Positions 8,380 to 49,954 of a DNA stretch of 64,000 nt are shown here, in pieces. Both the position numbers and the translations under genes were made by a program. The notes below the pieces were generated by a model. The model saw only the letters and a program-made list of their open reading frames with translations, did not search any database and was not told where the DNA came from. This DNA comes from an uncultured Caulobacterales bacterium. GTDB lineage: Bacteria; Pseudomonadota; Alphaproteobacteria; Caulobacterales; Maricaulaceae. The stretch lies in contig CALFVT010000009.1 in the NCBI GenBank assembly GCA_937928165.1, positions 1-64,000 of the forward strand. Reading direction: 5' to 3'. Position 1 is the first letter of the stretch. Each line of letters opens with the position of its first letter.

Positions 8380-10098
8380 ATGCCTCGTTTAAAGTCATTA
8401 CCGGTGTCATTATTTGCTCTTTGTCTCACGGCCTGTGCTACAGCGAGTCTTTCCGAGCCCGATTATACAACGGCGGAAGGTCAGCTTTTTGGTGAATATC
8501 TTGCCGGAACATATGCCAATGAAATCACGAATGCGTCGGCGAGAGCGGATTATTATACCAAAGCCTTTAACCGCCTGCCAAGCGATAGTAATTTAGGCCG
8601 CCGCGCGATAACGGCGAGCTTGCAAAGCGGTGATTTTACACAAGCCAAATCACAGGCGCGGTCTTTAATAAAGATCAATCCAAATGAATCTCTTGCCCGG
8701 ACGGTTCTAGGTGTTGATGCTTTTCGTAACGGCAATTATCGTGAGAGCGAAAAATATTTAGGTGTTTCGACGAATGATCCTACATTGCGAATGGTTATGG
8801 AGCTTGTGCAGGGCTGGTCATATGTTGAGCAGAAAGATTACGCCAAAGCCAAGGCCTTGTTTGAATCGCTTGATAGTCCAGATATCCCCTTTATTCCGCA
8901 ATATTTCCCATTTATCGGTAAATTACAGCTTGGAAAACTCGCCGCGTTACAGGGCGATACTGATGCGGCTTTAGAGCTATTTACGCAGGTGCAGGCTGTT
9001 GGGGTTGCTCCCGTGGAAACAGTCATGGCGCGTGCCCGAACTCTAAGCGTGGCGGGGCGAAGTGATGAAGCTTTGAAGGAATTAAAAGATTTATCCAAGC
9101 TTAACGGCGGCTTTGAAACAGGGCCCATTGCATGGGCGATTAAAGAGCTTGAGGCTGGGCGGGGTCTTGGCCCGCTGTTAACGCCAAAGCAAAATGCAGC
9201 TCGTGCGCTGATTGAACCCTCTCTTGGTTTTTTTCGACGATTAAATGCAGATGATGGAGCTGAAATTTACATACGCCTTGCCAATGTGATTGACCCTGAA
9301 AGTGATAAGGGCGCGTTGTGGCTTGGGAATTTGATGGACCAAGTTGGGCGCAATGAGGAGGCAAAACCCTTATATAGCGGAATTAAGCCAAGCTCAGTTT
9401 ATTATGTGCAAGCAGAGCTGTCTTTGGCGACATTATATCTTCGAGAAGATGATGATGATAAAGCCCTTGCGCTTTTGGAAAAAAGCTATGCTCGTGAACC
9501 GCTCAACGCAACCCGGGAAACCTTAGGACGGGTTCGGATTTTTAGGGAAAATTATGAAGAGGCACTGCCGATTTACGATGCGCTTGTGAACAGCCTGTCG
9601 GAAGAGGAGTTAAAGCTTGATGTTGAGCCGTTATATTTTCGAGGCATTGCCTATGAGCGCCTCAAAGAATTTGATAAGGCTGTGGCTGATTTTCGCCGTG
9701 TCTTGGAGCTTGACCCTGATAATGCGGATGCCTTGAATTATCTTGGCTATACATGGGTCGACCGGGGCGAAAACCTAACTGAGGCCTTTGATATGATTCG
9801 CAAGGCCGTGGCGCTAGAGCCTGAAAGCGGCGCAATTACAGATTCCCTTGGATGGGCACATTATAAACTCGGTGAATATGAAGAGGCGAAAATTCATCTT
9901 GAAAAAGCGGTCGTTTTAACCCCGGCCAGTGCAACCATAGTCGATCACCTTGGGGATGTGTATTGGAAATTAGGACGGTTCCGCGAAGCTGGTTATCAAT
10001 GGCAGCGCGCTCTTGATTTTGACCCGACAGACGAAGAAGAAGCCATGATAAAGCGCAAGCTTGACGGCGGACTTGATACGGTTAATTTGGCGCCTTAA
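8380..10098 (+). CDS. TPR-repeat lipoprotein
   Basis: A 572-residue protein with a lipoprotein signal (lipobox LTAC, Cys about residue 19), so it is probably anchored in a membrane facing the periplasm. The rest is mostly helical TPR repeats, clearest at about residues 380-550 where units such as YFRGIAYERLKEFDKAVADF and the LDPDNADALNYLGYTW segment repeat every 34 residues. Such proteins scaffold complexes, often in envelope assembly; no enzyme motif is visible. ispE follows 27-47 bp downstream, so the two may share a transcript. Confidence 0.88.
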   Translation: MPRLKSLPVSLFALCLTACATASLSEPDYTTAEGQLFGEYLAGTYANEITNASARADYYTKAFNRLPSDSNLGRRAITASLQSGDFTQAKSQARSLIKINPNESLARTVLGVDAFRNGNYRESEKYLGVSTNDPTLRMVMELVQGWSYVEQKDYAKAKALFESLDSPDIPFIPQYFPFIGKLQLGKLAALQGDTDAALELFTQVQAVGVAPVETVMARARTLSVAGRSDEALKELKDLSKLNGGFETGPIAWAIKELEAGRGLGPLLTPKQNAARALIEPSLGFFRRLNADDGAEIYIRLANVIDPESDKGALWLGNLMDQVGRNEEAKPLYSGIKPSSVYYVQAELSLATLYLREDDDDKALALLEKSYAREPLNATRETLGRVRIFRENYEEALPIYDALVNSLSEEELKLDVEPLYFRGIAYERLKEFDKAVADFRRVLELDPDNADALNYLGYTWVDRGENLTEAFDMIRKAVALEPESGAITDSLGWAHYKLGEYEEAKIHLEKAVVLTPASATIVDHLGDVYWKLGRFREAGYQWQRALDFDPTDEEEAMIKRKLDGGLDTVNLAP

Positions 10099-10145
10099 AC
10101 GCGCGGGCTACTCGATATCTTATTATGACGCGCGGCGGCGATATC

Positions 10146-11021
10146 ATGTATGAAAGCTTGGCGCGGGCCAAGATTAACTTGACGCTTCATGTGGGCACGC
10201 CGACTTCGAGCGGCGTATATGAAGGCTACCACCCCGTTGATAGCTTGGTCGTTTTCGCAGATATCGGCGACAATTTGCGTTATGATGCCGCCGGAGGCCC
10301 GCCAGGGGATATTGCGCTGACAATATCAGGTCCTTTTTCAGATGGTCTGGGCATAGCTTCCAGCAATCTTGTTTTAAAAGCTGCACGGGCTTTCTTTAAG
10401 TATTATAACATGACCCCTTGCGGGAGTTTTCACCTGATTAAAAATTTACCTCTCGCGTCGGGCATTGGCGGCGGCAGCGCCGATGCGGCGGCGGCGTTGC
10501 GGCTTTTAGGCGGCGCGTTTAAAACAGAGGCAAGCGATATGATGGATATTGCAACAAAAATTGGCGCAGATGTTCCCGTTTGCTATGTCTCCAAAACGGC
10601 CCATATGCAGGGCATAGGGGAGCAGGTCACGCTTAAGCCGGCATATAGCGAAATGGCGGCAATTTTGGTTAACCCCGGATTTGCGGTCTCTACGGCTGAT
10701 ATCTTTAATCGCTTTGATAGGGTTTTACCGCCGTCTCATGCGCTAAAGCCGCAAGTTTGGGACGGAAACTTATATGACGTAGCCAGTGTAGGGCGGAATG
10801 ATTTACAGCCCATAGCCATATCTTTACGGCCTGAAATAAACCACGTCATAAAAGACATATCACAGCAAGCGGGCTGCCGCTTGGCGCGTATGTCCGGCTC
10901 CGGCGCAACCTGTTTTGGGCTATTTGATAACGCGGTGGCGGCTAAATTAGCGGCGCAAGCTGTTACCTTAGAATACCCAAATTATTGGTGCCGCGCCGTA
11001 AGCTTAGGGGAGGGCCTATGA
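10146..11021 (+). CDS. ispE: 4-diphosphocytidyl-2-C-methyl-D-erythritol kinase
   Basis: A GHMP kinase of the MEP isoprenoid pathway, phosphorylating CDP-methylerythritol. The N-terminal ARAKINLTLHV motif and the ATP-binding PLASGIGGGSADAAAALRLL are the family hallmarks, and SGSGATCFGLF is the third GHMP motif. I start at ATG 10146, right before the conserved ARAKIN; an upstream ATG at 10125 would add seven residues. The stop overlaps the start of the next gene (ATGA at 11018-11021), so they are translationally coupled. Confidence 0.94.
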   Translation: MYESLARAKINLTLHVGTPTSSGVYEGYHPVDSLVVFADIGDNLRYDAAGGPPGDIALTISGPFSDGLGIASSNLVLKAARAFFKYYNMTPCGSFHLIKNLPLASGIGGGSADAAAALRLLGGAFKTEASDMMDIATKIGADVPVCYVSKTAHMQGIGEQVTLKPAYSEMAAILVNPGFAVSTADIFNRFDRVLPPSHALKPQVWDGNLYDVASVGRNDLQPIAISLRPEINHVIKDISQQAGCRLARMSGSGATCFGLFDNAVAAKLAAQAVTLEYPNYWCRAVSLGEGL

Positions 11022-12052: not shown

Positions 12053-13064
12053 TACGTTCAACGACGTAGCTGACAAGCGCTTTAAGGGTATCGCGAAGCG
12101 GTGAGGGCGGGAAAATATCCAGCCCTGCTTGGGCTTCATCTGCATAGGATTTAGCTAGCTCTAGAGTCGAGGTGAGCGCCCCCGTTTTGCGTAATAATGA
12201 AACGGCCCGTTCAAGGTCTGTCCCGCTTTGCTCATGGTCAACAATTACGCGCTTCCAGAAATCTTTATCATCTCCGCTGGCGGCGTTATAGGCGCGAATA
12301 ACAGGCAGGGTTACTTTGCCTTCACGGAAATCATCCCCGATAGACTTCCCAAGGGCGCTTTCCATGCCGCCGTAATCTAGTGTGTCATCGACGAGCTGAA
12401 AGGCGAGGCCGAGTTTAAGACCGTAATCTCGTAGGGCGTCTCGCTCTGCTACGGGGCGGTCGGCAATCACAGGCGCAACTTCGGTGGCCGCCGCAAAGAG
12501 CGCCGCCGTTTTTGCTTTAATCACGCTCATATAAGCGTCTTCTGTCATGGCAATATCGCGCAGCGCGGCGAGCTGTTGCACTTCCCCTTCGGCAATAACC
12601 GATGAGGCCGTGGAAAGAATGCCAAGGGCTTCCATAGACCCGGCTTCGACCATAAGGTTAAAAGCCCGCGCAAAAAGGAAATCCCCGACCAAAATAGAGG
12701 CAGAATTTCCCCAAATAAGGTTTGCCGGTTTCTGTCCGCGCCGCAGGGCACTTTCATCAACCACATCATCATGCAGCAAAGTGGCACTGTGGATAAATTC
12801 AACGGCGGCGGCCAATTTATGATGGGCATCATCCGCGTTATAGCCGCAAAGCTGCGCACTCGCGACAGTCAAGAGGGGCCGTAAACGCTTCCCGCCCGCG
12901 CCGACTAAGTGATGGGCAAGATTAGGGATAAGCCCAACCGGGCTTTGCATACGGTCTAAGATAATGGCATCAACGGCCGCCATATCATCACTTGATAGAT
13001 CAAAGAGACGCTGTGCGGGGGATTGCGCCCTGTCTGGCTGTGCTTGTTTTGCAGGTATGACCAC
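12045..13064 (-). CDS. ispB: Long-chain polyprenyl diphosphate synthase (octaprenyl/decaprenyl type)
   Basis: A 339-residue trans-prenyltransferase that builds the quinone side chain. Both aspartate-rich motifs are present: LLHDDVVDES (about residue 95-104) and LVDDTLDY (about 220-227). GGKRLRPLL in the N-terminal part is also typical. Chain length (8 to 10 units) cannot be told from sequence by eye. Convergent with the WecA-like gene, sharing 8 bp at the 3' ends, and divergent from the DUF2007 gene. Context with ispE fits isoprenoid supply. Confidence 0.93.
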   Translation of the reverse strand: MVIPAKQAQPDRAQSPAQRLFDLSSDDMAAVDAIILDRMQSPVGLIPNLAHHLVGAGGKRLRPLLTVASAQLCGYNADDAHHKLAAAVEFIHSATLLHDDVVDESALRRGQKPANLIWGNSASILVGDFLFARAFNLMVEAGSMEALGILSTASSVIAEGEVQQLAALRDIAMTEDAYMSVIKAKTAALFAAATEVAPVIADRPVAERDALRDYGLKLGLAFQLVDDTLDYGGMESALGKSIGDDFREGKVTLPVIRAYNAASGDDKDFWKRVIVDHEQSGTDLERAVSLLRKTGALTSTLELAKSYADEAQAGLDIFPPSPLRDTLKALVSYVVERIN

Positions 13065-46201: not shown

Positions 46202-46410
46202 TTAAGCATTTAATGTCCAAGAACGGATTTCTATTAATTCGTTGGACATATAGACTGCGTCAACAAGAGCAAATAACTGTGTAGATATCTGTGTATTAAT
46301 TATCTCATTACGTTCAAAGCCATTTTTAGCAATCTTTGTGTAATCTGCCGCTCTATCATTAAAGTTAATTACCATAAAATTAGGTGTGCCTTGAATAATT
46401 TTGAAGTTTA
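46202..46410 (-). pseudogene. 3' part of a 150-codon gene split by the IS1-type element
   Basis: Codons from the target duplication to TAA at 46202. It continues the frame of the 5' part at 49703-49954: the 5' part ends ...HAALNF and this part goes on KIIQGTPNF..., where LNF is the duplicated 8 bp read in both copies. Uninterrupted, the protein would have 84 + 66 = 150 residues. The apparent ATG at 46420 is inside the transposon end and is not a real start. Confidence 0.85.
46403..46410. repeat. Left copy of 8-bp target site duplication
   Basis: GAAGTTTA next to the left terminal inverted repeat; the same 8 bp follow the right end at 49703-49710. 8 bp is a usual size for IS1-family insertion. 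Confidence 0.92.
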
Positions 46411-46433
46411 GGTAGTGCATCAGTTTGAAATCT
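46411..46433 (+). repeat. Left terminal inverted repeat (IRL)
   Basis: Matches the reverse complement of 49680-49702 at all 23 positions. The outer GGTNNTG start resembles IS1-family ends. Confidence 0.92.
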
Positions 46434-46494
46434 AGCCTTTGATATTCTGTCAGACTTCCTATATGCTTAGCGTTAAGCAGAAATGGAGACTAAT

Positions 46495-46650
46495 ATGGGA
46501 CGTGCTAAAGCTGAAATGATGGAGCAAGACGAACCATCTGGTATTGAATGCCCTGTATGTACTAGCCCTATATCAAAGGGCGATGTTGAATTTTTTGAAG
46601 AAGTCGGCGCATGCTCATATTGCAATCATATAATGACTAAAGATGACTAA
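46495..46650 (+). CDS. 51-residue zinc-ribbon peptide (passenger)
   Basis: ATG at 46495 with a GGAG ribosome binding site seven bases upstream. The product has two CxxC pairs, CPVC (19-22) and CSYC (40-43), spaced for one zinc ribbon. It overlaps the next gene by 8 bp (ATGACTAA at 46643-46650), a sign of translational coupling. Too short for usual ORF calling. Function unknown; might bind the ends or assist the transposase (IS1-like transposases often have their own N-terminal zinc finger, which this one lacks). That is a guess. Confidence 0.72.
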   Translation: MGRAKAEMMEQDEPSGIECPVCTSPISKGDVEFFEEVGACSYCNHIMTKDD

Positions 46651-46873
46651 AAAGCTCAAACGCCCCCGCGATGTAACAGGCGGTGCTGTATTCGATATGA
46701 TGCGCCTTACTGGCGAGATTGAAGACGAAAAGCCCGCAGAATCAGACAAAGACCCTGCCGCCGTTGCTATGGGGCGCAAGGGTGGTAAGGCGCGCGCATC
46801 TAAGCTAACTGCAAAAGAGCGTAGCGAAATTGCAAAGAGGGCGGCAAAAAAAAGATGGAGTAAAAAGGAATAG
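46643..46873 (+). CDS. Small basic KGGKARA-motif protein (passenger)
   Basis: A 76-residue protein with an acidic first half and a very basic second half: MGRKGGKARASKLTAKERSE then IAKRAAKKRW. The GGKARA..LT..ER.EIAK.AA..RW pattern occurs widely in small hypothetical proteins and suggests nucleic acid binding. Coupled to the zinc-ribbon gene before it. Confidence 0.7.
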   Translation: MTKKLKRPRDVTGGAVFDMMRLTGEIEDEKPAESDKDPAAVAMGRKGGKARASKLTAKERSEIAKRAAKKRWSKKE

Positions 46874-46940
46874 TGGTTGACAAAACCATTAAATAATCGC
46901 ATACGGTTGCTGCGACCACACTGCTACCTGAAAGAACGAT

Positions 46941-47591
46941 ATGTCCACAAGCCCAGAAAATTTTGTCAAAGACCAAATTCCTGTATCTTCTTGGCCCTCC
47001 TTTCCAACAATCCTAAAAACAGCCTATAAGGCTGTCGATGATTTAATGGCCAACAATCCCATGCTAATGGTAAATAGTGCACAGGACAACAAGGGCCGAT
47101 TAATTTCTTTTGCTGTAGACCATGGCTTAGAACGCGCGATTCAGCGCGGATCTATAGATTGTGATTATCGATGGAAAAATTTTGCAAAGCCAACAGGTCG
47201 ATATTTGGAAATGCGCTTTTCGCATTCCATAGCAACTGTTAGTCAAGTTAAAGACCCGCACAGGCAGCCAAGAAGCGTAGTATTCCGAGAGAATGCAAAA
47301 ATCAGCAACACAGGGTCACTATTTCAGGGAATTGAAGGTTTTGATGATGAAATATGTGGGTTGCCACACATTCTTTTAGTTCACGGACATCAATCTTTAG
47401 ATTTTTCTCATTTTGGCATACCTTCTCATTCCTCAAAAACAAAATATGAGTGGCTTTCTACTAACTTAATGAATATGCCGCATGAAATACCGTCTGAACT
47501 GCCACCGTCGGAAGACACGGATTCTAGTTTAGATGGTCTGGAATTACTAAAGCAAGATATAGCGCGATGGGAGCGTGATAACGATGGCTAA
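46941..47591 (+). CDS. Unknown 216-residue protein, partner of the XRE/ImmA protein (passenger)
   Basis: Soluble protein without signal or membrane segment; no recognised domain. It ends in an acidic linker and ELLKQDIARWERDNDG. Its last 8 bp (ATGGCTAA, 47584-47591) contain the start of the ImmA/IrrE gene, so both are made together. From memory, proteins of similar size and ending often precede XRE-ImmA genes on mobile DNA. Two-gene stress, immunity or toxin-antitoxin function is possible but not shown. Confidence 0.72.
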   Translation: MSTSPENFVKDQIPVSSWPSFPTILKTAYKAVDDLMANNPMLMVNSAQDNKGRLISFAVDHGLERAIQRGSIDCDYRWKNFAKPTGRYLEMRFSHSIATVSQVKDPHRQPRSVVFRENAKISNTGSLFQGIEGFDDEICGLPHILLVHGHQSLDFSHFGIPSHSSKTKYEWLSTNLMNMPHEIPSELPPSEDTDSSLDGLELLKQDIARWERDNDG

Positions 47592-48768
47592 TGATAACAT
47601 CATTCAGTTTTCCAAGGCCGCCCAAATTAACCAAAATGGGCGGCTTTTGATTCCAACAAGACTCACCGAAGCTCGGCTAGCATGTAGACTCACTCAGACC
47701 GACCTAGCAAAAATGATTGGGTTAACTCGGCAATCCGTATCGGCGTATGAGCGCGGAGATAAGACGCCAGAGCCGTCAACAATGGCTAATATTGCTCGCT
47801 CATTAGAGCAACCAATTTCGTTTTTCACAAAAGAAGAACGAAAAACATTTGGTGTGCATAGCGCGAACTTCTTTAGGAAAACTGGCGCTGACACAAAGCG
47901 CAGGCGTCAAGCTTGTGAAATTTATGCGACCTGGCTTGCTCAGACGGCGTATGCTTTCGACTCTATTGCCAATTTTCCTAAGGTCGATATTCCTCAATTT
48001 GAGCCAAAGGGTGATGATTACACTCGCGATGAAATAGAAAACATTGCGGAGGAAGTTCGCATTCATTTCGGCTTAGGGCTTGGCCCAATCTCAAACATCA
48101 TACGACTAATGGAGTCAAAGGGCGTTATTGTTTGCCGTTACAAAATGGAAGGAGAGCAAGTTGAGGCCTTTTCTTTTTGGTCGGGCAATAAGCCATTCGT
48201 TTTTCTTGCTTCTGATAAAAATAGCGCTGCAAGGGCTAGATTCGATGCGTCCCACGAACTGGCTCATTTGTGCTTACATAGATGGGTTGGCGCTGAAGAA
48301 ATTGAGGATAAGGAACGGCTTAAGGTAATAGAGTCACAAGCTGATCACTTTGCGGGAGCCTTTATGCTTCCAAGAAAATCCTTCCCTAATGAAGTTTACT
48401 CTCCAAGGGCCGAATCTTTCATAGATTTGAAGGCGCGTTGGAAATCTTCCATTGGTGCTATGATTTATCGCTGCAAAGACCTTGGGCTTTTTGACGATAG
48501 ACAGGTTTTGAATCTCTATAAGACTATATCCCGAAAAAAATGGCGAACTATTGAACCATTAGACCGTGGCGCTGATGCCCTGCCGTTTGAGGAACCTGTG
48601 CTGTTGAAGCGCGTGGCTGAATTGGTTTTTGAGAGTGGCAGATATAAATTCGAAGAGTTTAAGGCTGATTTGGCAATATCTAATGACGCTTTAAGTCAGC
48701 TTGTTGGAATAGACTTCGGAACCGAATATGGACAGGTAAATCTTGGCTACGAACCAACATTAAAGTGA
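47584..48768 (+). CDS. XRE HTH + ImmA/IrrE metallopeptidase (passenger)
   Basis: A 394-residue fusion. Residues about 27-80 are a Cro/XRE helix-turn-helix (TQTDLAKMIGLTRQSVSAYE). Residues about 150-290 form an ImmA/IrrE (COG2856) zinc protease with HELAHLCLHRW, HExxH at 224-228, and the downstream ESQADHFAGAFMLPR that gives the third ligand. Such proteins cleave a repressor: ImmA cuts ImmR of ICEBs1 and IrrE/PprI cuts DdrO. Here it lies in a transposon, coupled to an unknown partner and 43 bp before the transposase start, so it might control element gene expression or act as a toxin-antitoxin half. Confidence 0.88.
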   Translation: MANDNIIQFSKAAQINQNGRLLIPTRLTEARLACRLTQTDLAKMIGLTRQSVSAYERGDKTPEPSTMANIARSLEQPISFFTKEERKTFGVHSANFFRKTGADTKRRRQACEIYATWLAQTAYAFDSIANFPKVDIPQFEPKGDDYTRDEIENIAEEVRIHFGLGLGPISNIIRLMESKGVIVCRYKMEGEQVEAFSFWSGNKPFVFLASDKNSAARARFDASHELAHLCLHRWVGAEEIEDKERLKVIESQADHFAGAFMLPRKSFPNEVYSPRAESFIDLKARWKSSIGAMIYRCKDLGLFDDRQVLNLYKTISRKKWRTIEPLDRGADALPFEEPVLLKRVAELVFESGRYKFEEFKADLAISNDALSQLVGIDFGTEYGQVNLGYEPTLK

Positions 48769-48811
48769 ACTAATGCTTGACGCTAAGCATAATGGTTCAT
48801 ATATTAAGTCT

Positions 48812-49693
48812 ATGAACAGGCTTGATACAAAAACACGTGCTCAAATTCTTGGAATGCTTTGCGAAGGAATGTCCATGCGGGCAATCTCACGCTTGACTGG
48901 CGCATCATTCAACACAGTTTCAAAGCTTATGATTGATGCGGGTAAAGCTTGCGCGGCGTATCATCATGAAAACGTTGTAGGCGTTTCTGCCAAGCGTGTT
49001 GAGTGTGACGAAATATGGTCATTCACTTATTCAAAGCAAAAGAACGTAAAGACAGCTAAGGCTGCCCCAGAGGGCGCAGGTGACACATGGACTTGGACAG
49101 CTCTTGATGCAGATAGCAAGCTTATAGTTTCATATCTCGTTGGAGGCCGTGACAGCCGCTACGCTAACGCCTTTATGGAAGATGTGGCCTCTCGCCTTAC
49201 TAATCGCGTTCAGCTCACTACAGATGGTCACAAGGCTTATTTAGAGGCTGTTGAAGGCGCGTTTGGATGTGATGTGGATTACGCTCAACTAGTCAAGATG
49301 TATGGCAAGTCACCTGAAAGCGCGAAAGGCCGCTATAGCCCCGCTAAATGCACTGGCATTAAGAAGATACCAGTTGAAGGCAATCCAGATGAAAAGCACA
49401 TAAGCACGTCGTATGTTGAGCGCCAGAACCTAACAATGCGCATGCACATGCGCCGCTTTACGCGCCTAACAAATGCATTCTCAAAGAAGTTTGAAAACCA
49501 CGCCCATATGGTCGCGCTATACACTGTCTTTTATAACTTCTGCAAAATCCACAAAACGCTACGCGTTAGCCCTGCGATGGAAGCGGGATTGACTGACACG
49601 CTAAAAGACTTTGAATGGATTGTTAGCCTCGTTGATGCTGCGGCTCCAAAAGTTGGACGCCCTAAGACTTATAAGAAGAAGATTTCAAACTGA
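48812..49693 (+). CDS. IS1-family transposase (single ORF)
   Basis: A 293-residue DDE transposase. N-terminal helix-turn-helix-like part, RAQILGMLCEGMSMRAISRL. Catalytic residues inferred as D66 in CDEIWSF, D138 in TDGHKAYLEAVE and E203 in YVERQNLTMR, followed by FTRLTNAFSKKFENH, all typical of IS1-family enzymes. Read as one uninterrupted frame, unlike classical IS1, which needs a -1 frameshift. I start at ATG 48812 (MNRLDTKTRAQI) rather than 48773. Stop is inside the right inverted repeat. Confidence 0.92.
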   Translation: MNRLDTKTRAQILGMLCEGMSMRAISRLTGASFNTVSKLMIDAGKACAAYHHENVVGVSAKRVECDEIWSFTYSKQKNVKTAKAAPEGAGDTWTWTALDADSKLIVSYLVGGRDSRYANAFMEDVASRLTNRVQLTTDGHKAYLEAVEGAFGCDVDYAQLVKMYGKSPESAKGRYSPAKCTGIKKIPVEGNPDEKHISTSYVERQNLTMRMHMRRFTRLTNAFSKKFENHAHMVALYTVFYNFCKIHKTLRVSPAMEAGLTDTLKDFEWIVSLVDAAAPKVGRPKTYKKKISN

Positions 49694-49702
49694 TGCACTA
49701 CC
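49680..49702 (-). repeat. Right terminal inverted repeat (IRR)
   Basis: 23 bp, perfect inverted match to 46411-46433; contains the transposase stop codon. Confidence 0.92.
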
Positions 49703-49710
49703 GAAGTTTA
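49703..49710. repeat. Right copy of 8-bp target site duplication
   Basis: GAAGTTTA, identical to 46403-46410. Confidence 0.92.
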
Positions 49711-49954
49711 AGGCAGCATGTGCTCTGTCTGTAGAACTTGTACCTTCGCCCCATGACCCAAGAATTAGATCAAATGTAGCGCCATGATCAGGACTATCGA
49801 TAGTCCAGCCAACAAAATAAGCTGCAATTGTAATTTCTTCTTGGTGGATGAAGCCCCAGATTTTTTGTGTTTTTGTCTGACAACAATTACAGTGGCCGCT
49901 ATCTTTTCCTGTTGGTTCAATTTGATAGTTTTGCCACTGATATGTTTTTGCCAT
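49703..49954 (-). pseudogene. 5' part of a 150-codon gene split by the IS1-type element
   Basis: 84 codons from ATG 49954, four bases after the yaaA stop. A CNCC motif (residues 22-25) and the IWGFIH and ILGSWGEGTSSTDR segments resemble a conserved hypothetical family that I cannot name. The frame continues exactly in 46202-46410. With the element present the product would run into the transposon end and stop within a few residues (…ALNFGSASV and on), so the gene is broken. Confidence 0.85.

Follow-up and report, generated by a model that had tools for sequence, protein, structure and literature searches.

A compact transposon family with an IS1-like transposase and exchangeable, largely toxin-antitoxin or defence cargo, represented in an uncultured Caulobacterales bacterium

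The window analysed here, a stretch of 64,000 nucleotides from contig CALFVT010000009.1 of an uncultured Caulobacterales bacterium (assembly GCA_937928165.1), contains a complete transposon at positions 46411-49702, which is 3292 bp long and carries five genes, all on the plus strand (Table 1). Its terminal inverted repeats agree over 23 bp without a mismatch (the repeat scan gave 26 nt at 96%), and two gene junctions overlap by 8 bp (46643-46650, and 47584-47591 when the fourth gene is read from the ATG at 47584). Removal in silico of the element and one copy of the 8-bp repeat joins the two flanking minus-strand pieces as a single frame of 150 amino acids (aa). The restored product had 3 matches in 119 genomes, one being the organism's own; the homologue in genome G042 (32% identity) aligns without a break over the junction (query residues 21-141), and a second one (38%, residues 77-147) also crosses it but contains a stop. 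Because the restored frame and the G042 alignment both cross the junction unbroken, the element most likely interrupts a host gene. Perfect 23-bp ends that adjoin a perfect 8-bp duplication, together with a host frame restored by removal, place the element beyond chance. No empty copy of the exact insertion site was found in a sister strain. A composite transposon is ruled out by the single transposase and single pair of ends, and an Rfam scan of the window at gathering scores gave no match. The first-pass annotation, made from the letters alone, had described the 23-bp ends, the 8-bp duplication, an intact single-frame IS1-like transposase and five same-strand open reading frames (ORFs) with 8-bp overlaps, all of which the repeat scan, the sequence and the ORFs bear out.

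Table 1. Features of the transposon and of its insertion site (positions in the window).
Feature	Position	Strand	Match or occurrence
Interrupted host gene, 3' part	46202..46402	-	
Target-site duplication, left copy, GAAGTTTA	46403..46410	.	
Left terminal inverted repeat, 23 bp, perfect, GGTAGTGCATCAGTTTGAAATCT	46411..46433	+	
Promoter-like site of the left operon, TTGATA-17-TATGCT	46439..46467	+	
Operator-like palindrome TATGCTTAGCGTTAAGCA, left copy	46462..46479	+	
Slot-1 gene, 55-aa zinc-ribbon-like protein, two CxxC pairs, replaceable	46483..46650	+	NF047912, below its cut-off
Core gene, 76-aa basic protein, GRKGGKARA...EIAKRAAKKRW helical hairpin	46643..46873	+	67/68 elements, 0 in flanks
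Slot-2 cargo, RmrT toxin candidate, 216 aa	46941..47591	+	PADLOC RmrT, 1.6e-88
Slot-2 cargo, RmrA antitoxin candidate, XRE helix-turn-helix and ImmA/IrrE peptidase, HELAH	47584..48768	+	PADLOC RmrA, 4.9e-183; PF06114, PF01381
Operator-like site, second (inverted) copy, within the transposase promoter	48776..48791	-	
Promoter-like site of the transposase, TTGACG-17-TATATT	48777..48805	+	top-scoring of 5 found
IS1-like single-frame transposase, 293 aa (306 if read from 48773)	48812..49693	+	PF03400, NF033558; conserved D, D, E
Right terminal inverted repeat, 23 bp, perfect, overlapping the transposase stop	49680..49702	-	
Target-site duplication, right copy, GAAGTTTA	49703..49710	.	
Interrupted host gene, 5' part	49711..49954	-	

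The transposase frame is open from 48773, and its best start is the ATG at 48812. This start is most likely the correct one, since the preceding codons fall in a promoter-like site and many homologues begin aligning at about codon 8-15. The protein scores 32.4 bits against PF03400 (DDE_Tnp_IS1), above the cut-off of 24.1, and 67 bits against the NCBIfam IS1 model NF033558, below the cut-off of 100; D79, D151 and E216, kept in at least 97% of 68 alignment rows, are the presumed catalytic residues. IS1-family elements have ends of consensus GGnnnTG, an 8-9 bp duplication, a length of about 0.7-1.2 kb and transposase genes only. In classical IS1 the insA and insB frames are joined by frameshifting; single-frame members exist too, and the family in ISfinder includes single-ORF and passenger-carrying subgroups. 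With these elements the transposon shares the Pfam match, the form of the ends (GGTAGTG) and the 8-bp duplication. It differs in being about three times longer, in its single uninterrupted frame, in its dedicated basic protein, in the cargo found in every delimited relative and in its score under the NCBIfam threshold. The element thus resembles a cargo-carrying insertion sequence of IS1 type, as the first-pass annotation had proposed; on sequence criteria, IS1 membership fits its transposase and ends and fails on size and gene content. A search of the open-licence PMC literature for the term ISMhu11 found no paper.

Loci were fetched with the window's transposase as query, from genome contigs (the best 80 of 165 relatives) and from relatives, and ends were sought with the consensus GGTAGTGnnnCAGTTTGA at up to 4 mismatches. 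The first set, drawn from loci L001-L096 and the window, comprises 68 elements including the window's. Admitted were elements that have ends and no more than 1 mismatch in the duplication, elements whose duplication is unreadable at a contig end, and elements with good ends and no duplication; a size floor of 1800 bp, applied to the last group only, kept out L078. The loci left aside are those without clear ends (contig ends, fragments, decay). The 8-bp duplication is perfect in 55 of the 68, and length runs from 2018 to 5291 bp (median 3309.5). None of the 68 is a plain element made of ends and transposase. A rescan of all 224 loci, whose overlap means that the counts are not independent, gave 161 matches to the transposase that are 200 aa or longer; ends flank 123 of them on both sides within 9 kb. 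The sole one of these below 1800 bp is L078, where 719 bp between family ends (9975-10693) hold the 3' part of a transposase and no matching duplication; it is probably an internal-deletion derivative. The first-pass annotation had held that related ends around a transposase alone would count against it, and had pointed to other copies in genomes as the place to look; the copies found have the same kind of ends, and all of the 68 have extra genes between them.

A second sample of 37 loci from other genomes was fetched after this pattern had formed and without a size floor; one was a duplicate, leaving 36 new loci. In 24 of them, ends come with a duplication that has no more than 1 mismatch (22 perfect), at lengths of 2389-4021 bp, and 23 of these 24 encode the small basic protein (two weakly, L214 and L221). 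The other 12 are without ends and duplication, several lying at contig ends or having fragmentary transposases; six still match the basic protein (L192, L193, L203, L213, L215 and L219), and L193 and L219 have an RmrA-like match. Since both samples share query and end consensus, the second tests the pattern and not the existence of other kinds of element. It bears directly on the idea that this is an ordinary IS1-family insertion sequence which picked up neighbouring genes once, the family pattern being an artefact of locus choice. Such a view can draw on the Pfam IS1 match, on the existence of passenger-carrying insertion sequences and on a first set made of the best 80 of 165 relatives and searched with one end consensus. 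It is already contradicted, and hardly credible, because the same ends, duplication and size range return in the new loci and because relatives reach, by record title, further phyla such as Bacteroidetes and Acidobacteria.

Judged from the record titles, Alphaproteobacteria predominate among the hosts, which also include Gamma- and Betaproteobacteria, Nitrospirae, Ignavibacteria, Actinomycetota and others besides the two phyla just named; many records are metagenome bins, whose names can be wrong. At E <= 1e-60, and with the own genome included, the transposase is found in 29 of 385 genomes sampled from the class and in 11 of 398 from the phylum. Plasmid records give 21 matches; of five examined, three have ends and a perfect duplication and one has ends but no duplication. 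The fifth, a Sphingomonas daechungensis plasmid (L101), lacks such ends; its transposase, 31% identical and annotated as IS1 family, possibly belongs to a second branch that has its own ends. Among 13 loci on viral contigs, of which L171 and L179 look like one element, the basic protein matches in 10 (three weak), an RmrA-like gene in 5, and the duplication is perfect in 5. One family element (L004) lies on a contig binned as the archaeal Nitrosopumilus, possibly a mis-binned bacterial contig.

In the window's own genome only this full copy was found, plus a 53-codon transposase fragment (42% identity) on contig C10. There, at 12315-12751 (L186 4316-4752) and 65 bp past a tRNA-Met gene, a lone end of another subtype, GGTAATGGGTCAGTTTGAAATCC, accompanies a transposase fragment that is related but different; this is probably what is left of a second member of the family in this genome. 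In G015, a genome of another genus in the same family, the same element is present at 95.3% DNA identity over 2859 bp, and at 90% in both the left 73 bp and the right 232 bp. This copy is split over two contigs and has CTAATTTT adjoining each end. Its site and its 8-bp repeat differ from those in the window, which indicates that the element has moved.

Profiles built from the window's four non-transposase proteins were run over the 68 elements. The basic protein was matched in 67 of them, or in 66 at a stricter cut-off (fixed search-space size, E <= 1e-5), and nowhere in 903,209 bp of flanking DNA. It is thus identified, from its distribution, as a core gene of the transposon and not as cargo. 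Of the four-gene cargo listed in the first-pass annotation, the zinc ribbon, the unknown partner and the XRE/ImmA protein are exchangeable, and the basic peptide moves to the core. An alignment of 52 sequences has seven invariant residues (D10, A15, G47, R51, A68, R71 and W72), and the structural model has three helices, the last two forming the hairpin, with a predicted local distance difference test score (pLDDT) of 68-95 by blocks of ten. Some observations weigh on the other side: one of the 68 elements, L027, is without it, L216 of the second sample shows only the hairpin inside a 381-aa frame, the predicted template modelling score of the model is 0.37, and a fold search with it gave no significant structural match. 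In L060, a type IIG restriction-modification protein carries the basic protein as an in-frame fusion at its N-terminus. Five P63C-domain cargo proteins (L023, L024, L049, L030 and L069) have a KGG hairpin like that of the basic protein at or near their N-terminus, and in L006 a YdaS/Cro-like helix-turn-helix (HTH) occupies the position of that hairpin, which is a hint that the basic protein binds DNA.

Between the conserved blocks lie three slots: from the left end to the basic-protein gene, from there to the transposase, and from the transposase to the right end. The exchange of their contents is seen in two Methylobacterium elements, L034 and L021, whose transposases are 97.2% identical. Four stretches have 93-95% DNA identity, namely 111 bp at the left, the initial 149 bp of the gene for the basic protein, the region of the transposase and the right end; no similarity was detected between these blocks. 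The pairs L076/L077, L033/L038 and L031/L036 likewise have the transposase side and some other blocks in common and the cargo not. In L033 (5634-10924), 5.3 kb between ends include two further transposase genes in slot 1 (ISAZ013-like and DDE_Tnp_1_3), and the duplication does not match. The window's zinc ribbon was tried as a core gene and ruled out: its profile was passed by the window's own protein alone, L056 being weak, paired CxxC ORFs occur 5' of the basic protein in just 5 of 68 elements, and in G015 slot 1 holds a 74-aa ORF unrelated to it.

The two genes of slot 2 are probably a RosmerTA toxin-antitoxin or defence pair. The XRE/ImmA protein matches PADLOC RmrA and combines an HTH with an ImmA-type peptidase, and the overlapping upstream gene, the former unknown partner, matches PADLOC RmrT (Table 1). 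The first-pass suggestion of a mobile defence or toxin-antitoxin module is thereby supported, function being assigned by homology. Some caution comes from the RmrT model, which is poor (mean pLDDT 62.8) and found no match at E 0.001 in a fold search. RmrA has been described as an antitoxin that has a protease domain and often an HTH and whose partner toxins are diverse, and a phage-borne RosmerTA pair proved toxic, not fully neutralised and antiphage (PMC10440598). The window's pair agrees with that account in its HTH-ImmA antitoxin and variable toxin; it differs in being transposon cargo. The toxin tested there depolarises membranes (PMC10440598), an activity that the RmrT here may share.

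RmrA-like genes occur in 21 of the 68 elements, as against one weak match in the 903,209 bp of flanks, RmrA being the gene for which inside-versus-flank enrichment was measured; the second sample has one inside the element in 4 of 24. They stand beside several partner types and on either strand. PADLOC names the partner RmrT in the representatives L011, L031 and L077 and not in L017, L039 and L072; RmrT of the window's type was matched in 2 elements and the zinc ribbon in 1. Further cargo was scanned singly (50 proteins against Pfam, 20 against PADLOC) and in bulk against both (107 of 140 listed cargo ORFs of at least 100 aa). These scans found type IIG restriction in L048, L059 and L060 (the first two by single scans, three members in the bulk scan), PD-Lambda-5 in L064, PD-T4-5/Abi-like genes in L024 and L029 (also L006 and L049 by cluster and bulk count), PemK in L008 and L027 (also L035 by cluster), Panacea in L053 and Fic in L027. 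A recognised toxin-antitoxin or defence gene is present in at least 33 of the 68 elements, a count that leaves out ATPases, ClpP-like proteases and P63C proteins. The label of defence carrier extends to those 33 or more, and about half of the elements carry unassigned cargo only, which tempers the reading of the family as dedicated to defence.

RmrA-like genes occur outside the transposon as well. A search for RmrA in 299 genomes of the order gave 28 matches; of the 27 besides the window's, 5 are inside elements whose duplication is perfect, and the other 22 lie outside such elements, some near contig ends. These 22 loci count against a transposon-bound cargo and partly realise the case that the first-pass annotation had set against itself, cargo in host DNA with no transposase, while a transposon of the window's type remains supported. 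On a tree of the 68 transposases, having an RmrA-like gene or none changes 18 times; 200 shuffles gave a mean of 18.2 (range 14-21), with 104 at 18 or fewer. Because the tree changes match the shuffles and most RmrA loci lie outside elements, cargo and vehicle are uncoupled, and RosmerTA is a wider pool from which the transposon draws.

The basic protein might also be an always-carried third component of the defence or toxin-antitoxin systems, for example an antitoxin or an anti-defence protein, rather than a transposition gene. Its gene often overlaps or closely follows the slot-1 ORF, and both the P63C hairpins and the L060 fusion could be read this way. Such a role is improbable, since the protein accompanies very different cargo, opposite-strand cargo included, and is found neither in the flanks nor at 20 of the 22 RmrA loci outside elements.

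A regulatory role is suggested by two operator-like sites. The palindrome TATGCTTAGCGTTAAGCA covers the -10 of the left promoter-like site, and its inverted copy begins within the -35 of the transposase promoter. Both sites, at up to 3 mismatches, are present in 32 of 92 elements (23/68 and 9/24), and in 26 of 92 at up to 2 mismatches; for control windows taken within the elements, the rates per site are 1.1% and 1.4%. The palindrome is unlikely to be an operator for RmrA, since it is found with AAA, ClpP-like, P63C, Abi and other cargo; this co-occurrence with unrelated cargo implies that the binding factor should be a core one. At least one site is present in 25 of 38 elements with the 'P.DVIG' form of the basic protein, versus 1 of 22 in which the protein has its other main form and 0 of the 6 remaining ones. 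Several points weigh against taking this as repression by the basic protein. The operator is clear in only part of the family, and its pattern was derived from first-set elements; its link to the form of the basic protein follows the family tree and is not independent evidence; the promoter scan of the region found 5 sites against 5.4 expected by chance, so that the left promoter-like site is weak alone and gains from coinciding with a conserved operator-like site; and repression by the transposase or by a host factor would fit equally well.

The basic protein might instead be a structural co-factor of transposition, which binds the ends or bends DNA in a histone-like manner and represses nothing. 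It is near-universal in the family while a clear operator is not, it is very basic and keeps its seven invariant residues, and a homologue in Mesorhizobium loti is annotated 'histone H1'. The operator-like sites that its own operon and the transposase gene have in common in their promoters point rather to regulation by a core protein, and the co-factor role is the less likely one.

Taken together, the element is very probably a complete member of a family of compact transposons with an IS1-like DDE transposase, conserved blocks and three slots that exchange largely toxin-antitoxin or defence cargo, with a proposed regulation by the basic protein. The blocks are the left end with its promoter, the basic-protein gene, the transposase gene and the right end. 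From the anatomy, an active transposase would recognise ends of the type GGTAGTGnnnCAGTTTGAA and insert with an 8-bp duplication. By homology, RmrA may restrain the toxin RmrT until phage infection or another stress frees it, and RosmerTA would then guard its host against phages, with a cost if the element is lost. The basic protein, for its part, may repress both the left operon and the transposase gene by binding to the palindrome TATGCTTAGCGnnAAGCA in their promoters, which would couple transposition to the establishment of the element.

Cargo-carrying insertion sequences are a known concept. The Tn3-family transposase is unrelated to the IS1-like one, and the transposition machinery of Tn7-like elements also differs from it. 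Several insertion-sequence families include members with passenger genes (tIS), similarly built of one transposase, one pair of ends and extra genes inside; the IS6 family has a single such member, unlike the present family with extra genes in all 68 delimited elements and an arrangement of fixed blocks and slots (PMC7986276). Tn3-family transposons also embed toxin-antitoxin genes beside their transposition genes and exchange them, and a regulatory role was proposed for these pairs; here, restriction and Abi cargo occur too, and the common operator goes with the core and not with the toxin-antitoxin pair (PMC7157771). Tn7-like transposons are likewise carriers of diverse defence systems; the present elements differ in their 2-5 kb size, single transposase and sites with differing 8-bp duplications (PMC8649781). 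No description of this transposon family was found among the papers listed from the open-licence PMC literature, judged mostly by titles and the starts of abstracts, and PMC10017437 yielded nothing more about passenger genes. We lean slightly towards seeing here a separate, previously undescribed class of small defence-dedicated transposons, characterised by an IS1-like transposase, a family-specific basic regulator, fixed ends, three slots and a common operator that would link the expression of the transposase to establishment.

It is often unclear by which routes toxin-antitoxin pairs and small defence modules move from genome to genome. If the proposed reading is true, this family would be a shuttle that takes toxin-antitoxin, Abi and restriction modules from one chromosome, plasmid or phage to another. 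As the elements are precisely bounded by signature ends and a signature protein, their cargo can be delimited to the base, and the unrecognised cargo between these ends, in about half of the elements, would constitute a list of candidate defence genes and a pointer to new defence systems. The conserved basic protein and the operator, in turn, raise a testable question, namely how a transposon with toxic cargo controls itself.

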